Assembly (NCBI GenBank): GCA_905236065.1 | Contig: CAJONZ010000052.1 | Coordinates: 1-61,142, forward strand | Direction: 5' to 3' | DNA length: 61,142 nt | Origin: an uncultured Bacteroidaceae bacterium | GTDB lineage: Bacteria; Bacteroidota; Bacteroidia; Bacteroidales; Bacteroidaceae | Shown: one piece after another, positions 12,033 through 45,915 of the stretch | Layout: each line of letters opens with the position of its first letter | Position numbering within the stretch: position 1 is the first letter of the stretch | The notes under the pieces: model-generated | What the model saw: only the letters and a program-made list of their open reading frames with translations | Told to the model about the DNA's origin: nothing | Databases searched by the model: none | Program-made: the position numbers and the translations under genes

Positions 12033-12066
12033 ACAGGCAGACAAGAAGAAATTCCTGTCTGCCTGT
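12033..12066. terminator. Intrinsic terminator between convergent genes
   Basis: ACAGGCAGACA (12033-12043) and TGTCTGCCTGT (12056-12066) form an 11-bp perfect stem with a 12-nt loop. It closes the menA-CPBP unit and may also serve the small-peptide gene on the minus strand. Confidence 0.8.
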
Positions 12067-12088: not shown

Positions 12089-12292
12089 TTACCAGATAGA
12101 ACCGTAGCTGGGTTCGTTCTCGATGGAGAGGATTTCCTCTGGATCCTCAACCTCCACCTCGGTGCGAGTGCCACGCTCCTTTACCAGCACCTCGCTATTG
12201 TTGGCGGGGGCATCGTGGAGTGAAAGGCAGATAAGCGATTCAATTTCAATTTTGTGTGCCGTCATCAACGGCTGCATATAAGTCTTTTTCAT
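12089..12292 (-). CDS. Small protein with MKK.Y..P start and YGSIW end (copy A)
   Basis: 67 residues, unknown function. It begins MKKTYMQP, has a hydrophobic patch (IEIESLICLSL, about 16-26), an acidic second half (RGTRTEVEVEDPEEILSI) and ends PSYGSIW. The 73-residue protein at 39331-39552 shares this layout: MKK.Y..P, a hydrophobic stretch ending in SL, RG..T, an acidic run with EE.L..I, and P.YGSIW. Both lie directly after a gene for a secreted protein on the same strand (here a 40-bp gap), so co-transcription is likely. No classical signal-peptidase site is evident. A peptide processed from a precursor, or a partner of the secreted protein, is speculation. Confidence 0.75.
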   Translation of the reverse strand: MKKTYMQPLMTAHKIEIESLICLSLHDAPANNSEVLVKERGTRTEVEVEDPEEILSIENEPSYGSIW

Positions 12293-12332: not shown

Positions 12333-14393
12333 TTACTTCACGAACACCTTGCTGGTCTTGCCATCGGCAGTTACCACGATGTTCAAGCCCTTCTGCAGTG
12401 ACTTCACCTCTACACCACTTGCGCTGTAGATGGCAACAATGTCCTCATCTGCGGGAGCTTCTACAGTCTCAATAGCTGTTGCGTCACCATTGAAGAAGAA
12501 GGCACGCTCCTTGGCATCTCCATAATCAGCTGGAAGATATGCACGACCAGCTGGAATCTTTGGAGTTGCAATACTTGTGTCCACTCTGTAGAAACCAACC
12601 TTACCATTTTGATTTTGGAGAACATACGAGCCATTGGGAGCAGGCATATCCTCACTGACAGATTCCAAATTAGTGTCAGTGTATTCTTCTCCATTATTTT
12701 CCACAACTGGAATCATATAGTCACCAGCTGTACCTTCAATAACAACACCATTGTTTGCAGGAACCACATTTCTAGGTACCAAGGTCAATGAATAACCAGT
12801 TCTGCTCGTGACGAGGTAAGCTTTTATACCTTCCACTTTCGAAAAGTCAACAGTCTTGTTTGATGAAAATGTAGCGTAACCAGCAGAAGTAATAGAGGTA
12901 TATACAACATCGGTCCTTATAATGCAAATATAGTCAATAACTTTAGGAGAACTGCCACCATTTCCTGTTGCAGCCAAAACGACTGTACTTTCCTCTTCCA
13001 ATGTTATCTCCTCACTTACTGCTTCATACTCATATCCCATCGTTGAAGCTGTAAATATATTTTTTTCATTAACTTTAAAATTAAAATCAGTACCAGCATT
13101 TCCAAATGTCGCTACTTTAAAGATGTATTTACCTGCAGGTAAAGTCACTATGTCAACATCTGAACTTGCATATGCGGCATTACCTTTTGAACAACGTACA
13201 GGAATATTATTATTAGTAGAGGATACTGTCATGCCCTCTATGTCCTCAGCTTCTGAACAAAAAGCAACTACAGAATTAGCAACCTTTTTATATGTTTCAT
13301 TTGCATTAACATCGTCTGTCACATTAGAAGCTGTATATTGGAAGCCTTGGTCATAACGATTTTTTACAATCTGATAGAGATTTGTACCACTGCTCAGATA
13401 ACGTGGGTAAGCATAAGTATAGCTCTTTGCGTCTTTCACAACAACACTGCTCAGTTGCTTTTCAAAGTCACCAATAGCGTTGAATGTAACAGTATGGTCT
13501 GCCAGAGCCTCACGAGAATATACGATAGTTACTGTTGCATTTTCTTCAACAGACGCTATTGACTCTGCACCACTCACGTATGTATAACGATAAGTGTCAT
13601 CATCAAACGATGTTTCATAGGCAGATTCAAAAGATTCTCCTTCCGTTATATAGTCAATTCGGTCTTCAAGTACCGCTGTCCCATCAGACAACTGATATTT
13701 CGTTGTAACCTCATAAGTCGCAGTTGTAGGCAAATCACCGTCTTCAATTTCGCGAATTACAATATTATCAATTGCAAAGTTTGCCATGTAACGACGTGTT
13801 ACAAATTCCATTTTTCCCAAACCACCTGTTGAACTTGGGGAAGTTACTGCCGAACGTTCAAATACTTCATTTCCATTAGCACCGGCAATGGTTACATAAG
13901 TATATGTCCCTGATCGTGTAACTTTAATGCTATACCAAGGCACATCAGAGATTGAATTAGAGCTATTACCTTTATTCGTGTTTGCCAAATTCACCTGAGT
14001 ATCAGAACCATTTATTTTCCAAGTGGTAGCCCATGTACCTGTAGCTGTCAAAGAAAACATTACGTTAGCATTTGAAGCATCATAAATATTGAACGATGCT
14101 GGTGACTGATTAGTAGAACTGCTAATCTTCAAATCGAACGTCATCGTGAAATCAGTTCCTGCTGCAACTTTTCCACTCAAAGAGGTACTGCTTATTGTAG
14201 TACCATTATTATTTCTGGTTCCCTGTTCCACAGACAAAAAATGATTGCCATTATCCTCCAAAATTACAGGTGTAAAACGGCCACTTGTACCAGTTGTCCA
14301 ATCAGCAGTAGCACCATCTGCTTCATAATCCTGTGAATAAATCACATCCGCCCATGCGTTTGCACCCATAAGCAACCCTGCTCCTACGAGCAA
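12333..14393 (-). CDS. Secreted protein with sorting-type C-terminal domain; start out of frame at an A7 run
   Basis: About 690 residues of envelope or secreted protein. After a hydrophobic leader (LLVGAGLLMGANAWA) comes a jelly-roll or LamG/CBM-like domain (about 17-215: FTMTFDLKI, NFAIDNIVIREIED), a middle region with MucBP/bacterial-Ig-like segments, a second CBM-like domain (about 400-500) and a C-terminus (AIYSASGVEVKSL...KVFVK) like type IX-style sorting domains. The natural start should be ATG at 14414-14416 followed by Lys-Lys, but seven A's after that ATG put it out of frame and it stops within 11 codons; eight A's would restore MKKNYFKALLVGAGLL. As it stands only a TTG at 14393 opens the frame. 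Ligand or enzyme activity is not identifiable. The peptide gene 12089-12292 follows. Confidence 0.8.
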   Translation of the reverse strand: MLVGAGLLMGANAWADVIYSQDYEADGATADWTTGTSGRFTPVILEDNGNHFLSVEQGTRNNNGTTISSTSLSGKVAAGTDFTMTFDLKISSSTNQSPASFNIYDASNANVMFSLTATGTWATTWKINGSDTQVNLANTNKGNSSNSISDVPWYSIKVTRSGTYTYVTIAGANGNEVFERSAVTSPSSTGGLGKMEFVTRRYMANFAIDNIVIREIEDGDLPTTATYEVTTKYQLSDGTAVLEDRIDYITEGESFESAYETSFDDDTYRYTYVSGAESIASVEENATVTIVYSREALADHTVTFNAIGDFEKQLSSVVVKDAKSYTYAYPRYLSSGTNLYQIVKNRYDQGFQYTASNVTDDVNANETYKKVANSVVAFCSEAEDIEGMTVSSTNNNIPVRCSKGNAAYASSDVDIVTLPAGKYIFKVATFGNAGTDFNFKVNEKNIFTASTMGYEYEAVSEEITLEEESTVVLAATGNGGSSPKVIDYICIIRTDVVYTSITSAGYATFSSNKTVDFSKVEGIKAYLVTSRTGYSLTLVPRNVVPANNGVVIEGTAGDYMIPVVENNGEEYTDTNLESVSEDMPAPNGSYVLQNQNGKVGFYRVDTSIATPKIPAGRAYLPADYGDAKERAFFFNGDATAIETVEAPADEDIVAIYSASGVEVKSLQKGLNIVVTADGKTSKVFVK

Positions 14394-14416
14394 AGCTTTA
14401 AAGTAGTTTTTTTCAT

Positions 14417-14971
14417 TTGATTTTTGTAAATAAATTAGGTTATATAAATAAGTTCGAAAGTTCGGTTGTTGTAGCGGTCGTCCGTCCTTACCTGGATGGA
14501 CACACCCAAAATTTGCGTAAAGATAAAGAAAAAAGCTATAAGGAGCATTGGAAAAAACGAAAAAAACGCAAAAAAAGTTTGTTTTTTCCTTCTCTACCCG
14601 CCCAATTGTACGTTTTCGGAGGGGTACGGAGTCAAAATCACTCCGAAGGTAATTGACCTACCTGATTCCTTGGATCACACCTTACCGTGGTTATTCGTAG
14701 TGCGGCCTCTCCGAGGCCTCGGTTCTGTAGCAAGATTTTCACGCAGAACTGCATTCACGAATAGAGTTCTGCGTGAAGTCGAATAGAGTTCTGCGTCGTC
14801 TCCGATAGAGTTAAGCGTTGCAACTTGTTGAAAAACATATCGCCGCAGACGAAAATATAAGAGGCCAAAGAACAAAGGGAAACCAAAAAGGGGCTACGCT
14901 GAAGGTGCTCACATTCAGAAAAATCAAAAAAACTTTTGCTATTTCGCTCACATAATCGTACCTTTGCAGTG
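14417..14971. other. Repeat-rich intergenic region before rnpB
   Basis: About 550 bp without a supported gene. It contains a hairpin GTCCGTCC TTACCT GGATGGAC (about 14479-14502), an A-rich tract, a 13-bp perfect inverted repeat TTCACGCAGAACT / AGTTCTGCGTGAA (14738-14750, 14765-14777), a 17-bp unit CGAATAGAGTTCTGCGT at 14758 and 14780 with a weaker third copy near 14803, and the rnpB promoter. Confidence 0.6.
14908..14968 (+). promoter_or_regulatory. rnpB promoter within the conserved 61-bp block
   Basis: TTG (14936-14938), 20 nt, TACCTTTG (14959-14966). The block matches the thiamine-operon promoter 3075-3135 without gaps, including CTCACA.TCA.AAAAATCAA upstream of the -33 element. Confidence 0.8.
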
Positions 14972-39226: not shown

Positions 39227-39330
39227 CTAAAGAAAGCCCCGTCTTTATGTTTTTTACATATGGGAGGGAACGAAAAAAGCACTGGCCTTCAAACAGAAAG
39301 CCAGTGCCAATGCATTCCTCAGTCTCATTT

Positions 39331-39552
39331 CTAATTGCCCCAGATTGACCCGTAAGTCGGGCCGTCTCCAGCCTGAATATCCATCAGCATCTCCTCTTCT
39401 TCTTCCGTAAACTCATCGGTTTTCTTGCCACGTGCGCGGGCCTCGGCAGCCTCGCCTGCATAGCCTGTGGTCTGGGAAAGACTGACTGTCAAAAGGGTTG
39501 CCACCTTGACTGTCAACACACCTGTTTCGGGGGATATATATATCTTTTTCAT
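39331..39552 (-). CDS. Small protein with MKK.Y..P start and YGSIW end (copy B)
   Basis: 73 residues: MKKIYISPETG start, hydrophobic stretch VLTVKVATLLTVSLS (about 12-26), Gly/Ala-rich middle, RGKKTDEF, an acidic run EEEEEMLMDI and the end PTYGSIWGN. It is a clear relative of 12089-12292, sharing the first-position motif, the SL that ends the hydrophobic part, RG..T, the acid cluster and YGSIW. It lies 13 bp after the cohesin-like gene as the last gene of the secreted-protein operon. Function unknown. Confidence 0.78.
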   Translation of the reverse strand: MKKIYISPETGVLTVKVATLLTVSLSQTTGYAGEAAEARARGKKTDEFTEEEEEMLMDIQAGDGPTYGSIWGN

Positions 39553-39565
39553 CTTTACAACTACT

Positions 39566-40852
39566 TTATTTAACCAACATCAATTGCTTGTTTACAATAT
39601 ACACACCCGTCGTAACAGGCTTGGCAATCCTTTGTCCGCCAACCGTAAACACGTCGTAGCTTACCGACTGCATTTCGCTCTCAATCGCACCAATACCAGC
39701 AGGGTCTTCGCCTTCTATCAACACACGGTATGCTTTCACTTCGTTGGGTGTATTTGTCTGGAAGTAGGCACGATAGGGCGCAACAGTAAAATATTCAGTT
39801 CCCTTCTTAAACTGATTTTCCGCAATGTAATAGGAAGGTGCGGCCTCATCCACGTTTACGGTTGTTTGGGCATAGACGCCTTTCAGTGTGAACAGGCTTT
39901 CCACGTCCGTAATCTCCGTAGCCAGAAGGGCATTCTCCGCAGTCAAAGTCACAGCGTCGCCGCTCAACTTCTTGAATACGGACGGTTGGCCTGCCTCCAC
40001 CTCGTCAATCTCGTCGAAGTAGAACACGTTACCCTGTTGGCCGCTCAGTCTGTAGAACTGCACTGTTGCGTCCGATTTCACGGCATAGGGCAGACACACC
40101 GTGCCCCAATCGTTCGTCATCGTGCGGGAGTAAGTAGCCACAGGTACTGTCACATCCGCTGCTACAGGAGGTACAAAGTTGCGCCCATCCACCAACGTCA
40201 ATGTTCCACCCATGCCTGTCACGGCACTGCAATCCAGGGTGCCGATGGCAGTCTCTGTGGCCAGTGCCTCATTGACAAACGAAGGCACATAGCCTGTAAG
40301 CGGTAGCGTGGCATTCGTGGGACTTCCAATCTTTACGTATGAGGTCGATGTAGCTGGTTTTACTCCTGTGTGACTATCCACACCAAGTACTGTTCCTGAA
40401 ATCGTGATAGGATATACCCCCGGTTGCATATCGGCAGCCGTCTCATAATAGAAGATGAGAAGTTCGCCTTCCGTGCCACGGATGGTTTCCAAATCCTCGT
40501 TATAGATGGTGATGTAATAATGTCCATCTGATTGCAAAGTCACATCGTAATTATGGTTGGGAATAAAAACGCCTTTTCTAAATCTGCCAGGAAATCGTTC
40601 TGAGCTCAATTCCATCGGATCGTACTCATCGCTTTCTGTGATAAGGGTCATGCCTTCTGGTAGATAAAGATTGAACTCGATGGCTGTGTAGCTTTGGGTA
40701 TTCTTCATTTCAATGCTGAAAGTTTCGTCGCTACCTTCTTCTACACCTGCAACCGTTGCAAAAGGCGTTACTTGCAGCACATCCTCTGCCCTTGCCACAG
40801 ATAGCGGCAAGAGCAGTAGGATATAAATAATGGTTCTAAAAAATTTATTCAT
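39566..40852 (-). CDS. Secreted protein with cohesin-like domain and sorting-type C-terminus
   Basis: 428 residues. Signal peptide MNKFFRTIIYILLLLPLSVARA. Residues about 25-180 look like a cohesin/CBM2-CBM3-type beta-sandwich (GSDETFSIEMKN, AIEFNLYLPEGMTL, YYITIYNEDLETIRG, GELLIFYYE), the fold used to hold dockerins in cellulosomes. A middle region (about 215-380) matches the beta-rich domain common in Prevotella surface proteins (TNDWGTVCLPYAV). The end SYDVFTVGGQRI...YIVNKQLMLVK resembles a type IX-style C-terminal domain. It overlaps the upstream dockerin-bearing gene by 8 bp. Confidence 0.78.
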   Translation of the reverse strand: MNKFFRTIIYILLLLPLSVARAEDVLQVTPFATVAGVEEGSDETFSIEMKNTQSYTAIEFNLYLPEGMTLITESDEYDPMELSSERFPGRFRKGVFIPNHNYDVTLQSDGHYYITIYNEDLETIRGTEGELLIFYYETAADMQPGVYPITISGTVLGVDSHTGVKPATSTSYVKIGSPTNATLPLTGYVPSFVNEALATETAIGTLDCSAVTGMGGTLTLVDGRNFVPPVAADVTVPVATYSRTMTNDWGTVCLPYAVKSDATVQFYRLSGQQGNVFYFDEIDEVEAGQPSVFKKLSGDAVTLTAENALLATEITDVESLFTLKGVYAQTTVNVDEAAPSYYIAENQFKKGTEYFTVAPYRAYFQTNTPNEVKAYRVLIEGEDPAGIGAIESEMQSVSYDVFTVGGQRIAKPVTTGVYIVNKQLMLVK

Positions 40853-42338
40853 TGTCTTCTTCGTTATTTGATTTCATGATTTCAAGGATGCCAATCACGT
40901 CAAGGATGTTTATTTCCTTTTCGTCGTTGGTGTTGGCAGCCTCCTTTATTAGCGTATCATCCTCAATGCCTTTCATTATAGTCAATGTGGAAACAACATC
41001 CAGAATGTTTACCGCATCATCGCCGTTGGCATCTCCTCGTTTGTACACACCCATCCTTCCGTTTCTGGTGCGTGTCGTCACAGTGGTTCCGTCTGTCTGA
41101 GTCACCGAAATCTGGTTGATTTTCACTTGGTATGAGACACCCGTCTGGGCTGTATCGGCCACATTTACGTGGAAGGTCAGGAATGGTGTGGTACACTCAG
41201 GCGTTTTTCCTCCTACCAATGAGAATATATAAACAGAGTCGTTAAGTGCAGTGAGCGAACTCTCATAGCCTACAGCCTTGTCCGACACCGTGATACTGTC
41301 CATATCGGGCATCATGGCTGTGGGGAACATCAGTTGGAACGTCATGTCACACAGCGAGTCCTTGCTGGCCAGATAGAGCGGGTAGTCAATGATTCGCCCC
41401 GGAATGCTGTTCACGGTCATCAGATAGAAAGAATATTTATCCAATGCTGGCATATTGGGTTCGCGTGGCGATGTCGGGTTGAATTTGAACCGGGCTTGGA
41501 AATCCACATCCTCTTCGCCCAGCGTGTAGGAGAAGTTGCGGAGCGTGGTGTAAAGTTCGCCATTCAGATACCAGCCCTCGAAACTATAGCCGTCGTTCAC
41601 ATACGCATACAGCGTGAACGAGCTACCTTCATACACCAGACCGCTTGTGCCGCTCCAGTAACCGCCTTCCGTGGCATTCACCTTTACATGATGGCGTAAC
41701 GTGGGCTTCACGGGTTCCATTGGTGAACTTGGCGCAAAAGCGTAATTGGCATAGAGCGTATCTTTGTATGTCTTTGTAGTATAGCTGAACGAGCGGTCTG
41801 TGGATATCACTTCGCCGTCCTTGTTAGTCCAGTTCACGAAGGAATAGCCATCCTCGGTGTAGGCATACACGGTTACGTTTCTTCCGGCCTGGTAGCTGCC
41901 GCCGCCCGATACGCCGCTACTACCTGTGCGACCAATCAAGGTGAGCTTATAGTAAAGAATGGTGGATGGATCCACGGGTTCACTGGGCGCACCAGGTGTG
42001 AACTCGTAGTTTGCAATCAGGGTGTCGGCCTTGTCCGTGTTTGTAAAGTAGAACGACGTGGCCGTTGACAGGACATTCCCCTTGGTGTCAGTCCAGTTTC
42101 GGAATGTGTAGCCGCTGTTGACGTAGGCATACACACGAACGGGCGTGTTCACCAAGTGCTTGCCACCACCCGACACGCTTCCTGCCTCGGATGAAGTGTT
42201 CATCAGCAGCACCAACCGTGAATACACATTGGGTGCCGACGGCTCCGACGGGGAAGCGGGGTTGTAGCTGTCCTGCCCATGGGCAGTGATGCCCAACAGG
42301 AGCATCACTACCATAGACAAATAACGTATCTTGTTCAT
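40845..42338 (-). CDS. Secreted protein with InlB-type repeats, cohesin-like domain and dockerin-like end
   Basis: 497 residues. Signal peptide about 1-21. Three InlB B-repeat (Listeria-Bacteroides) units follow at about 38-110, 120-200 and 205-290, each with YAY..DGYSF..W and a Gly-Gly turn. Residues about 300-420 form a cohesin-like sandwich (CDMTFQLMFPTAM, FLTFHVNV). The end has two Ca-loop repeats, GDANGDDAVNILDVVSTLTIM and EKEINILDVIGILEIM, the dockerin type I pattern. There is no sorting-type tail, unlike its two neighbours, so anchoring through the cohesin-bearing neighbour is an attractive guess. Confidence 0.78.
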   Translation of the reverse strand: MNKIRYLSMVVMLLLGITAHGQDSYNPASPSEPSAPNVYSRLVLLMNTSSEAGSVSGGGKHLVNTPVRVYAYVNSGYTFRNWTDTKGNVLSTATSFYFTNTDKADTLIANYEFTPGAPSEPVDPSTILYYKLTLIGRTGSSGVSGGGSYQAGRNVTVYAYTEDGYSFVNWTNKDGEVISTDRSFSYTTKTYKDTLYANYAFAPSSPMEPVKPTLRHHVKVNATEGGYWSGTSGLVYEGSSFTLYAYVNDGYSFEGWYLNGELYTTLRNFSYTLGEEDVDFQARFKFNPTSPREPNMPALDKYSFYLMTVNSIPGRIIDYPLYLASKDSLCDMTFQLMFPTAMMPDMDSITVSDKAVGYESSLTALNDSVYIFSLVGGKTPECTTPFLTFHVNVADTAQTGVSYQVKINQISVTQTDGTTVTTRTRNGRMGVYKRGDANGDDAVNILDVVSTLTIMKGIEDDTLIKEAANTNDEKEINILDVIGILEIMKSNNEEDNE

Positions 42339-42345
42339 AAGCCTC

Positions 42346-45300
42346 TTACTTTACGATTACTTTCACTGCCTTGCCATTGGCGCGGACAATATATGTGCCT
42401 TGTGGCATCTCTACGGTTTCGCCCTCAGCCGTGAGTGTCTTTGTCTGAATAAGGCGACCGTCGAGTGCATAAATCTGAGCTTCGCCGTCGATGCCAACGA
42501 GGTTGATACCACCATCAGTGCCGTTAATCACGGTCTGCTGCTGTTCTGTATCGGTAATCTCAGAAGCCATGCCGGCAAACTGCAAGGTGAAGCGGCCCTC
42601 ATCGATGCCTGCCTGGGTGGTGAAGGCATAGTCCTGTGCACTGAGGTTCACGGTCTGGTTGGCATAGTTGTCGGTCAGAATCACTTGCTTGGCATCGCAT
42701 CGTGGCATAGTCAGAGTATATTGTCCGGCCTTCGTTGCATACAGCCCAAGCTGGATGCTGCCCTCGGCCATGGGACGCTCGTTGATGGCATACTCCGTGC
42801 CGTCTGTGCCCAAAGTGTAAATCTGCGGACATTCCGTGTCGGCACTGAGGAACTTGCTGGCATCATAGTCCGTCTCGTAGCCGCATTGCGCCTGCTCGTT
42901 CAGTACGATACGGGTCTGGTCGCTGAACTGCTCATTGTAAATCTGTATGTCGATGAGTTGGCGGTCGGCTGTTGAGGCCACACGGGACTTTGCTGCGTTC
43001 TGGCTCTCAATCACGGCACTGAACTGACGGCCTTGCAACGGGAACGAAATGGTGTTCAGTTCTGCGCTGGGGCATTGTACGAAGAAGGCTTCGTTCGGGC
43101 GGATGGCATAGTCGTCGTCCGTGATGGAATAAGCCGTGTAGGTTCTGTTATATTCATTCCATACGGTGATGGGTGCCGTGAAGTTCAGGGCGTGGTTGTT
43201 GTAGTAGCACTGATACGGATTGCCCACCAGGTTCCACCCCCTGTCGGCTGCGTTTTCGCAAGCGTTTACCTCCAGTGTCTTCGTGAATTCATTGTTGGCC
43301 ACGATGTTCTGCTTGTTGGCGTTGTCAACAGAGTAGAAGTAGTTCCATGTATCCTTGTTGGTCTGAATGATGAAACCTGTGCCCGCAGGAATGATTTCGT
43401 CGGTCTCACAGTTCTTCCATGAGCCTGTTGCCCCGTATGTGGCACGGTTGGCACCGTCGTAGCGGCGGATGGCAAACTGCACATCTGCGGCCTTGTGAGT
43501 GATTTCAGAAACTTTCATGTCATAAGGCAAAGAGAAGAAGTACCAATATTTCTCACGGGTAAAGAGACTGTTGCGAATCGTACCGTTCACGGTTACATGG
43601 TCACAATTGCTGTAAATCTGAGCCGGGAAATTTCCCTCACTATAATAGTAATGATATCCGCCAATATACAGGTCGTTTATCTCCTGTGCGTTTTCACCAT
43701 TGATTTTCAGATAGGGCAGACGTTCTTTATTACCTTCAATGCGGATATTCGGGTTCCCCTCAAAGCGGTCGCGGGCATTCATCACCAATGGTTTACGGAT
43801 GTGCCAGTCACCTACTTCTTCGGTGTCGAAGCCTTCAATGGCATAGGCATCGTACCAGTATTCATCCAGTTTATAGGAATTGACCAAATAGGAAGGTACC
43901 TCTATCGTGATGTTGGCAAGATTGGGTCCCAGTTTGTAGTTGTTTTTGTAATCGTGCTCTACAACCGTTGGGCAATCCATGCGGACGCGATTGAGGGCGG
44001 TACAACCTGAGAAAATGGGACTGTTCACGGCAATTTTATAATACGACACTGGCAAATGCACATATTTCAGATTTGTGCAATCTATAAAGGCATAACCGTC
44101 AATATTAATGTCGTTCTGCGGACATTTCAACGAATCCAATGAGGTGCAGTATGCAAAAGCATAACTACCGATAGAGGTCAAGGCCGAAGGCAGGCTGTCC
44201 ATCGTCATAGAGTAGCAATATTGGAAAGCATAGTCCCCGATGGTCTCCACGGTATTGGGCATAACAATCTGTGCAAAGCGATCTCCACTAAAAGCATAAC
44301 TGGGTATGGCCTTAATAATCTTGCCAAGATTAATAGACAAGGCCAGGCGATTTCCATTAAAGGCATAGCTTCCTAACGATGCAATAGAGTCTGGTAAGTT
44401 GATTTCTCTGAGTTGAGAATAATAGAAAGCATCTGTGCCAATAGATGTGAGTCGAGATGGAAAGTTGATTTCCTCTATATAAGTGTATTCAAATGCGTAG
44501 TTTCCGATGGTCTCTACGGTCTCTGGCAATATCACTTTGTGCAGGAACTTGGCGGCTGAAGCAGATTCGGATCCTCTGAACTGATTGGCGGGTACGGCTT
44601 CGGTGATGGCATCCTCCAAATCCAGTTCACACAGGCTGGTCATCATCTGAATCTTGGCCCAGTCGTCATCGTTCATCCTGCCATGTACCTTCAGGCGCTT
44701 TACGTTCTTGATGTGGTCGGTGTTGTAGAGCACCTCGGTACCAAGGCTTCCGGGCTCCAACAGGCTCACCTCAATCAGCGGTGTGGCTATGCACCCAACA
44801 TTATAGATAGATACAGACTGACTGCTTGTGGAGGTGTTCTCATACACCCACTTCACGGTGTGTGTACCGGCAGACAGGTTCTCGAAGAAACGGTGGTGTG
44901 AACCTGCATAGCTGAAACCTTGATCGTAGGTCATGTATCCATAGAAATGCCGTGTCTTCACACCATCCACATAGACATCGACCGAATAACCATTGGATGG
45001 CGTCGCTATTTCATACACAAAGGTTGCCTCCTGATCCACAGTGACGGTTGCGTCGAGCGAGCTGATAGAGTTCACATCAAGAACCCTTGAGTAATACGTA
45101 CCAGTCGTATAGTGTTCATTGGGCAGTGCCCATGTGTACCAATAACCATCTCCAAATGTTCCGTCGCTGGTGGAAATCAAAATGGGGTACTCATTCCACG
45201 ACGGAGCCTCGTAGCCGCTTGACATGCGCAGTCCGTTGGTCAGTTGCTGGGCCAGCGTGGTCAGTTCCTCTGGGGTCTTTTCTGCACGCTGGGTATAGGC

Positions 45301-45915
45301 TTCCTCGTAATTGTCTAAATACCAGCCACGACTGCTATAGGTTTCTGAGGCTTGCAGGGCACGATACAACCTGCGCTCAGCCATGTAGCGCTCTCCATCC
45401 TCAATGGTGAAAAGCTTCCAGTGAATGGCCCCATCCGCCGGACGGTTGGCATAGACGTAGTCGGAGGAGGGATCGCCTGTCCAGCCGAGATATTCGTCGG
45501 CGTTGTAGTAAGATGTATTAACTGGTGAGCGCTGAATGGTGTAACCGTTGTCTGTAGCGGTAATCGTCCAGTAGCAATAACGTTCAAGATAGGAATAGTT
45601 TAGGTTAGCATAGGGGGCACTATAGCTACAAACATAGCCACTGCTGTAGTTTGTGTAGAAAAGAGAGTAAGAGCCATTGGCTTCCAAGGTTATCCGCACG
45701 GGCTCCGCTTTGTCTTGTTTGACACCAACATAACCGCTGCTGTTGGTCGTGGTGTGCATAAACATGTCGGCTTCCACATTATAAATATAATACGTCTCTC
45801 CCGAAACAGGAGCTACCGCAGTGGGCATGGTGGGCGCCACTCTTTCTGTTGCCCACGCCGTGAGCGAACAGAGACTTACCGCAAAGGCGGAAAGAATTTG
45901 TAAGGATTTTTTCAT
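42346..45915 (-). CDS. BspA-like leucine-rich-repeat surface protein
   Basis: 1189 residues, first gene of the secreted operon. Signal peptide about 1-22. N-terminal carbohydrate-binding-type regions (about 40-180 and 240-390, the latter with DVYVDGVKTRHFYG) precede a block of BspA/LRR_5 repeats (about 430-690: VETIGNYAFEYTYIEEINFP, LTSIGTDAFYYSQLREINLP and so on). A beta-rich region with WYFFSLPYDMKVSEIT and the sorting-type C-terminus (AQIYALDGRLIQTKTL...VKVIVK) complete it. BspA proteins mediate adhesion or mucosal interactions. Eight bp separate it from the next gene. Confidence 0.88.
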   Translation of the reverse strand: MKKSLQILSAFAVSLCSLTAWATERVAPTMPTAVAPVSGETYYIYNVEADMFMHTTTNSSGYVGVKQDKAEPVRITLEANGSYSLFYTNYSSGYVCSYSAPYANLNYSYLERYCYWTITATDNGYTIQRSPVNTSYYNADEYLGWTGDPSSDYVYANRPADGAIHWKLFTIEDGERYMAERRLYRALQASETYSSRGWYLDNYEEAYTQRAEKTPEELTTLAQQLTNGLRMSSGYEAPSWNEYPILISTSDGTFGDGYWYTWALPNEHYTTGTYYSRVLDVNSISSLDATVTVDQEATFVYEIATPSNGYSVDVYVDGVKTRHFYGYMTYDQGFSYAGSHHRFFENLSAGTHTVKWVYENTSTSSQSVSIYNVGCIATPLIEVSLLEPGSLGTEVLYNTDHIKNVKRLKVHGRMNDDDWAKIQMMTSLCELDLEDAITEAVPANQFRGSESASAAKFLHKVILPETVETIGNYAFEYTYIEEINFPSRLTSIGTDAFYYSQLREINLPDSIASLGSYAFNGNRLALSINLGKIIKAIPSYAFSGDRFAQIVMPNTVETIGDYAFQYCYSMTMDSLPSALTSIGSYAFAYCTSLDSLKCPQNDINIDGYAFIDCTNLKYVHLPVSYYKIAVNSPIFSGCTALNRVRMDCPTVVEHDYKNNYKLGPNLANITIEVPSYLVNSYKLDEYWYDAYAIEGFDTEEVGDWHIRKPLVMNARDRFEGNPNIRIEGNKERLPYLKINGENAQEINDLYIGGYHYYYSEGNFPAQIYSNCDHVTVNGTIRNSLFTREKYWYFFSLPYDMKVSEITHKAADVQFAIRRYDGANRATYGATGSWKNCETDEIIPAGTGFIIQTNKDTWNYFYSVDNANKQNIVANNEFTKTLEVNACENAADRGWNLVGNPYQCYYNNHALNFTAPITVWNEYNRTYTAYSITDDDYAIRPNEAFFVQCPSAELNTISFPLQGRQFSAVIESQNAAKSRVASTADRQLIDIQIYNEQFSDQTRIVLNEQAQCGYETDYDASKFLSADTECPQIYTLGTDGTEYAINERPMAEGSIQLGLYATKAGQYTLTMPRCDAKQVILTDNYANQTVNLSAQDYAFTTQAGIDEGRFTLQFAGMASEITDTEQQQTVINGTDGGINLVGIDGEAQIYALDGRLIQTKTLTAEGETVEMPQGTYIVRANGKAVKVIVK

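Follow-up and report, generated by a model that had tools for sequence, protein, structure and literature searches.

The window, that is, the whole 61,142-nucleotide stretch of DNA from an uncultured Bacteroidaceae bacterium that we analysed, contains two small genes, copies A and B, whose products are 67 and 73 residues long. Both ORFs lie where an earlier note on this DNA had placed them, and their products are homologous almost end to end, as that note had proposed (BLASTP E 1e-05, 18/71 identities). Each follows a gene for a secreted protein with a C-terminal sorting domain (CTD) in the style of type IX secretion (T9SS), hereafter its cargo gene, and the previously described intervals between the cargo stop and the small gene, 40 bp for A and 13 bp for B, were confirmed. 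The positions of these genes, of the motifs in the small proteins and of the hairpins behind them are collected in Table 1.

Table 1. Features of the two small-gene loci in the window (residue numbers refer to the respective protein).
Feature	Coordinates	Strand	Basis
Copy A, 67-aa YxxP small protein, proposed precursor peptide	12089..12292	-	homology, paralogues, dN/dS
Copy A, proposed leader, residues 1-21 (predicted cut point)	12230..12292	-	analogy with LPP
Copy A, YxxP motif (YMQP)	12269..12280	-	sequence, alignment
Copy A, Ser24 (Y+19), predicted phosphorylation site	12221..12223	-	family position; LPP Ser3
Copy A, proposed acidic core, residues 22-67, ending YGSIW	12092..12229	-	
Copy A, terminator-like hairpin, 15 pairs, T-run	12033..12066	-	22 bases past stop
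Cargo gene upstream of A, 686-aa ORF; T9SS-type sorting domain at residues 606-686	12333..14393	-	
Copy B, 73-aa YxxP small protein	39331..39552	-	homology, dN/dS
Copy B, YxxP motif (YISP)	39529..39540	-	sequence, alignment
Copy B, Ser24 (Y+19)	39481..39483	-	family position
Copy B, terminator-like hairpin, 13 pairs, T-run	39278..39308	-	22 bases past stop
Cargo gene upstream of B; T9SS-type sorting domain at residues 346-428	39566..40852	-	
LRR surface protein further upstream in the B gene row; DUF6383 / Por_Secre_tail-type C-terminus	42346..45915	-	

The C-termini of the two cargo proteins score 77 bits (A) and 72 bits (B) with a T9SS C-terminus profile and that of the LRR protein scores 22 bits, all three sequences being among the 32 C-termini, from the window and the genus included, on which the profile (A3) was built. 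In the cargo C-termini, which form a short domain, G and KG lie close to the middle and VK at the end. Curated models TIGR04183 and PF18962 each match one of the 32 at E 0.1, and the cargo C-termini are a divergent version of the T9SS type A domain that these models describe. A structure model of the CTD contains three confident C-terminal strands. The best hit in a PDB fold search with this model had an E of 1.3, which is uninformative, so that the model does not prove a T9SS fold. The T9SS label fits because the genome encodes PorU, the sortase of that system.

Two further observations concern the upstream genes. The cargo frame before A starts at a TTG within the signal-peptide region (14393-14420, minus strand), and just upstream of this TTG is an ATG with a poly-A run that lies in a different frame, which makes the gene start in the assembly doubtful. 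In the B gene row, 40845-42338 encodes a 497-aa secreted protein that has three InlB B-type repeats and no CTD of its own, and that sits between two CTD genes. Two further repeats at its C terminus are, we assume, dockerin-like.

The small gene appears to close its transcription unit. At both A and B a long hairpin with a T-run begins 22 bases past the stop, and a hairpin is present 22-63 bases past the stop in 6/7 of the copies examined in this genome, the C61 copy being the exception. This reading leans on stem length and position and not on site count, which is at chance level near A (1 site found, 0.8 expected) and not above chance in the region of B (2 sites, 0.7 expected).

No convincing family assignment came from Pfam or NCBIfam for A and B or for any of 31 further members. 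The lead to the YxxP motif came from a weak match to lasso_PadeA (E 0.014) in one of the 33 members searched. A profile search of the PDB with the small family gave no match at E 10, and the predicted structure of A, which is of low confidence (pLDDT 62), has neither secondary structure nor a folded domain. The tail of the small proteins is acidic and, as modelled, apparently disordered. No cleavable signal peptide is seen by eye in A or B, and the small proteins themselves carry no T9SS-type sorting domain.

The genome from which the window comes (2.73 Mb in 130 contigs) encodes eight members of the family at E ≤0.01 with a six-row profile, namely A, B, C68, C95, C70:17547, C5, C61 and C70:10231, the last two of which are weaker. 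Four clear paralogues are 76, 73, 48 and 24% identical to A (alignment A2). Members occur in 38 of the 45 genomes of the genus (E 0.01) and, across the bacterial family, in 271/399 genomes and 22/30 genera with a 33-row profile (E 0.001). With the best 16 candidates scored in each genome, PorU-positive genomes average 3.6 matches and the highest count for one genome is at least 16. A spread across the phylum was considered and rejected: among 395 genomes drawn from the phylum, few of them from the same family or order, two match, this genome itself and another of the same bacterial family. The small proteins belong to a large family of Prevotella-type gut bacteria that is apparently undescribed.

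The small ORFs were shown to evolve as coding sequences. For A and its two closest paralogues dN/dS is 0.15-0.20, with third codon positions varying most; B, compared with its relative from genome G014, gives 0.35. In all 14 scorable pairs dN is lower than dS (plain ratios of 0.12-0.68; 15 pairs were run, one of which gave no value, and the pairs are not all independent).

Three elements are fixed in the family: MKKxYxxP at the N terminus, a short run of hydrophobic residues and a serine. Leader residues Y5 and P8 are invariant in alignment A2 (33/33), and [YFWH]xxP is found in all 92 members of a larger set that combines the 33 profile rows with 59 members from outside the genus. Within this set the serine falls at Y+19 in 91 members and at Y+18 in the remaining one, with Ala or Cys two positions ahead of it in 84/92. 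Conserved positions are favoured in such counts, since members were found with profiles built from other members. A plain YxxP pattern scan also yields shadow ORFs, and the pattern alone is therefore not evidence. The region past the predicted leader has a median pI of 4.05 and a median length of 34-39 residues in the family sample. Its ending varies: the YGSIW after which the small proteins had been named is real in A but is one tail form only, alongside GNLW, DLW and DIW, and what is shared more widely is a Trp within the last seven residues (81/92).

The pairing with cargo genes extends well beyond the window. Seven of the eight members in this genome sit behind a gene with a T9SS-style C-terminus, and the eighth behind a gene for an 826-residue protein without a CTD. 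Counted from the cargo side, profile A3 finds 42 CTD genes in the genome at E 0.01, seven of which have a recognised small partner. Elsewhere in the genus a CTD gene is upstream of the member at 27/29 loci, the other two (L026 and L042) being interrupted by a contig end. Of these 27 C-termini, 25 were among the training sequences of the profile; those of L022 and L047, which were not, score 65 and 60 bits. Outside the genus, a CTD gene (score >10 bits) lies upstream of the member in 52/55 assessable loci, compared with 2/87 for the remaining genes at these loci. This set comprises the 59 top-ranked members, one per genome and hence not random, from which four with a contig end just upstream were set aside; the three misses are L136, L151 and L153, and the median gap between cargo and member is 32 bp. 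The earlier note had argued for a functional pair from two loci and had looked to a broad search for an enrichment of secreted-protein genes upstream. That enrichment was found, and the pairing is strongly supported in far more than two copies.

The distribution of the sortase gives the same picture on a larger scale. PorU is present in 44 of the 45 genus genomes, and family-wide the small proteins occur in 248/309 PorU-positive compared with 23/90 PorU-negative genomes, seven of the latter 23 being drafts of genera that are usually PorU-positive. With these seven drafts left out, the loci of the other 16 genomes were inspected, and a CTD gene precedes the diverged relatives in none of 30. For PorU-negative genomes a general linkage to cargo was accordingly rejected. 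The PorU-negative relatives keep the leader, and 21 of the 23 sequences with a readable motif, out of 30, have a serine at Y+19 or Y+20 with a small residue two positions before it. Cargo is therefore unneeded in the wider family, and the linkage is a specialisation of its PorU-positive side. One PorU-negative genome, G486, has four weak YxxP-type matches inside ~7.5 kb (C23:59768-67097); one of these, L187, is a longer form with another ending (MKNTYVKPEM...YVAAC).

That no modification enzyme adjoins either copy, another point of the earlier note, holds for the genes inspected beside A and B; the candidates are on a different contig, C65. A PqqD-type recognition protein (RRE; PF05402) is above the cut-off in 43/45 genus genomes, including this one, where it is encoded on C65. 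The two genomes without a match are G007 and G022. G007 has nine family members yet no PqqD match, which counts against the reading proposed below; it is 83% complete, and the missing gene may be an assembly gap. Enzyme and substrate are near-universal in the genus, so their co-occurrence there tests little.

The genes around PqqD fall into a few arrangements. At 17 of 26 loci, in 17 genomes, the order is a clostripain-type C11 protease, an HprK-like kinase, an S24/S26 peptidase and PqqD. Six loci have HprK-PqqD without these peptidases, of which three also contain an ABC exporter and one a nucleotidyltransferase-like gene; one locus has a nucleotidyltransferase and PqqD, and two are radical-SAM clusters. 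Among named genomes, the trio of HprK, S24 and PqqD is together in 76 of the best 80 loci, drawn from at least 588 relatives, and clostripain was found in just 17 of the same 80. These 80 are apparently all Bacteroidales: Prevotella, Paraprevotella, Segatella, Hoylesella, Leyella, Xylanibacter and uncultured relatives. Searched with one query each and within the loci only, an NTP transferase was found in 2/26 PqqD loci and in 0/80 named-genome loci, and an ABC exporter in 3/26 and 0/80. In many genomes (L201-L210) the kinase-peptidase-PqqD locus is flanked by genes that we take to be RpoD-like sigma factor and uracil-DNA-glycosylase-like genes, which is a stable, housekeeping-like address.

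The residues expected of active enzymes are largely retained. In the HprK-like kinase, H150, G165, G170, K171, S172, D190 and D191 are invariant and G168 nearly so, and the motif equals the one printed for BsfK, a kinase of lasso precursors, except for two extra residues ahead of the Asp pair; the kinases fall far below the NCBIfam cut-offs for HprK. The S24/S26 peptidase, which scores just below the PF00717 cut-off, has an invariant Ser74, His112 and Asp127 (11/11). In PqqD, N36 is invariant (18/18) and D74 is found in 15/18, at a spacing of 38 residues. In LppB, residues N33 and D70, which hold the Pro and Tyr of the leader, are 37 residues apart (PMC13381572); the two pairs are matched by position only.

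In the stretches read, none of the 17 main enzyme loci contains a precursor at E <1. The link between these enzymes and the scattered small genes therefore rests on the motif and on a few secondary loci. A YxxP ORF is beside or near HprK/PqqD in three of the six secondary HprK loci. In L211 a CTD cargo gene (53 bits), a YxxP ORF, PqqD and HprK are direct neighbours in that order; the peptide has no conserved Ser, which counts against a simple rule. L219 has a YxxP ORF, HprK and PqqD in a row, the preceding gene not being cargo and the Ser being at Y+20. L218 has a CTD cargo gene (55 bits) and a YxxP ORF, followed after ~2.9 kb and two intervening ORFs by HprK, PqqD and an ABC exporter. At L213, on the opposite strand and ~2.5 kb past the exporter, a CTD cargo gene (47 bits) is followed by a weak match (E 0.036).

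The two radical-SAM loci, L216 and L217, bear on the nature of the N terminus. Both have a leader much like that of the small proteins, MKK[E/Q]FVKPEIK...ENILAGSG, beside a radical-SAM maturase and PqqD, which suggests that an N terminus of this kind is likely a RiPP leader in the genus. These TIGR04463-like RiPP clusters resemble the system described here in their MKKxFxxP leader, which adjoins PqqD. They differ in having a Cys-containing core and a radical SAM maturase, and no HprK-like gene was found in either locus. The clusters, at L216 5966-7853 and L217 7805-9700, are compact.

The closest described system is that of the linear polyphosphorylated peptides (LPP) of Bacillota, which combines a YxxP leader, a discrete RRE, an HprK-like kinase and a leader peptidase and has no need of a lasso cyclase (PMC13381572). 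YxxP is the docking motif by which lasso and LPP leaders are bound by PqqD-type recognition elements, the peptidase LppS uses Ser, His and Asp, and the cut leaves a phosphorylated Ser as residue 3 of the core (PMC13381572). The family studied here resembles LPP in its YxxP leader, in a core that would start with small-x-S (A-Q-S in LPP) and in its variable C terminus, and the genome encodes an RRE, an HprK-like kinase and a signal-peptidase-like peptidase with Ser, His and Asp (PMC13381572). The distance from Tyr to Ser is 19 residues here and 18 in the LPP consensus (PMC13381572). By analogy, we infer that the conserved Ser would be position 3 of the core.

There are also differences. LPP precursors are encoded within their cluster, one to three in each, whereas those described here are scattered over the genome; the LPP set includes an NTP transferase and an MsbA-like exporter, which are mostly absent from our loci; and clostripain is often present and T9SS cargo linked here, unlike in LPP (PMC13381572). 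The authors call LPP restricted to Bacillota, and the string 'bacteroid' does not occur in the main text of that paper (PMC13381572). The present system would work like LPP but is not filed as LPP, because its precursors lie outside the main locus and because the NTP transferase and the exporter are not part of that locus.

Similar parts are found in the lasso peptide BsfA, which has a YxxP leader and in which a B1-type RRE speeds an HprK-like kinase that phosphorylates core Ser3, a change of the leader Tyr alone not stopping phosphorylation (PMC10368454). The likeness to the paeninodin/Bsf systems comprises the YxxP leader, the RRE and the HprK-like kinase, whereas in the present system the leader would be removed by an S24/S26-type peptidase (PMC10368454). 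The lasso B2 protease (PF13471) is above the cut-off in none of the 45 genus genomes, with matches below the cut-off in five. No lasso is therefore expected, and a lasso pathway was rejected.

Taken together, A and B are probably precursors of a trans-acting, LPP-like RiPP pathway that are co-transcribed with T9SS cargo. As far as sequence can tell, the family seems to supply the starting material for a peptide that is processed and probably phosphorylated, by enzymes encoded elsewhere in the genome. In the mechanism that we propose, the PqqD-type RRE would bind the YxxP leader, the HprK-like kinase would phosphorylate Ser24, and the S24/S26 peptidase would cut just ahead of the [A/C]-x-S motif, before residue 22, to set free an acidic core of ~35-45 residues. 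Where it is present, the C11 protease (clostripain) would perhaps trim this core after Lys/Arg. Since the precursor would be transcribed with a T9SS cargo gene, both would be made together, and it is probable that the peptide works together with its cargo at the cell surface or reports on it. A RiPP-like precursor was the option that the earlier note had rated weak, for want of an enzyme next to it. Among the options it now has the strongest support, from the YxxP leader, the fixed Ser (91/92) and the set of PqqD, HprK, S24/S26 and C11 genes, so that of the original interpretation the cargo pairing stands and the low rank of this option does not.

Among the alternatives, the nearest to this proposal keeps the same RiPP machinery and explains the cargo linkage as expression hitch-hiking with no functional link; it is a variant of the preferred explanation and does not exclude it. 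The absence of cargo at all 30 PorU-negative loci would agree with it, as would the copy in this genome that follows a gene without a CTD and the L219 precursor behind a non-cargo gene. However, an association of 52/55 against 2/87 across many genomes is hard to obtain without a selected link, and the presence of PorU predicts that of the family, so we consider hitch-hiking rather unlikely. The tight position behind the cargo gene (median gap 32), the lack of a visible cleavable signal peptide in A and B and the acidic, apparently disordered tail could also suit an unmodified partner, a cytoplasmic chaperone or pilot encoded in the same operon that keeps T9SS cargo export-competent. We hold this to be improbable. 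Only 7/42 CTD genes in this genome have a recognised small gene, which indicates that cargo export has no general need of the small protein; what is best conserved is a RiPP-type leader and one Ser, and the model of A has no folded domain; and related leaders are found beside RiPP enzymes and, in PorU-negative genomes, without cargo.

A peptide pheromone or signal that is processed by a protease and otherwise unmodified would agree with the presence of several such proteins in one genome, with their conserved start and with the Trp near the end in 81/92, and the C11 protease of the enzyme locus could serve such a role. This possibility would leave unexplained why kinase and RRE genes are conserved, and it appears distinctly improbable to us. 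That the ORFs are not genes at all is suggested by their small size only, and the chance of it is practically negligible given that dN is below dS in every scorable pair, that members occur in 271/399 genomes and that hairpins follow soon after the ORF.

The preferred reading, a trans-acting pathway with precursors behind cargo genes, can be taken one step further. It is possible, though we put it forward tentatively, that Prevotella-lineage bacteria run a single genome-wide phosphopeptide factory, in which many T9SS cargo operons each feed in a precursor of their own and the resulting peptide anchors or tags the cargo or reports its secretion. In Porphyromonas, T9SS cargo is anchored to surface polysaccharide, and abstracts in the literature speak of an anionic modification. 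LPP and paeninodin clusters are often found within capsular polysaccharide loci (PMC13381572), and one may guess at a cell-surface role common to the LPP/paeninodin peptides and those described here.

If the proposal is true, a RiPP pathway would be a routine part of protein secretion and not a self-contained natural-product cluster. It would be a Bacteroidota RiPP system with one enzyme set and many scattered precursors, and its maturation would be tied to type IX secretion, a connection for which we found no paper in open-licence PubMed Central; a search of titles and the starts of abstracts there returned neither RiPP precursors linked to T9SS cargo nor this family. For hundreds of short genes of dominant gut, oral and rumen bacteria, which have no Pfam or NCBIfam family, the proposal also offers a role that can be tested.

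A further feature was noticed by eye in front of the small genes. Copies A, C68, C95, C70 and C5 share an AT-rich stretch, approximately TTAAAA-n-CAGAA, ~15-30 bases before their start, which may be a translation or stability element.
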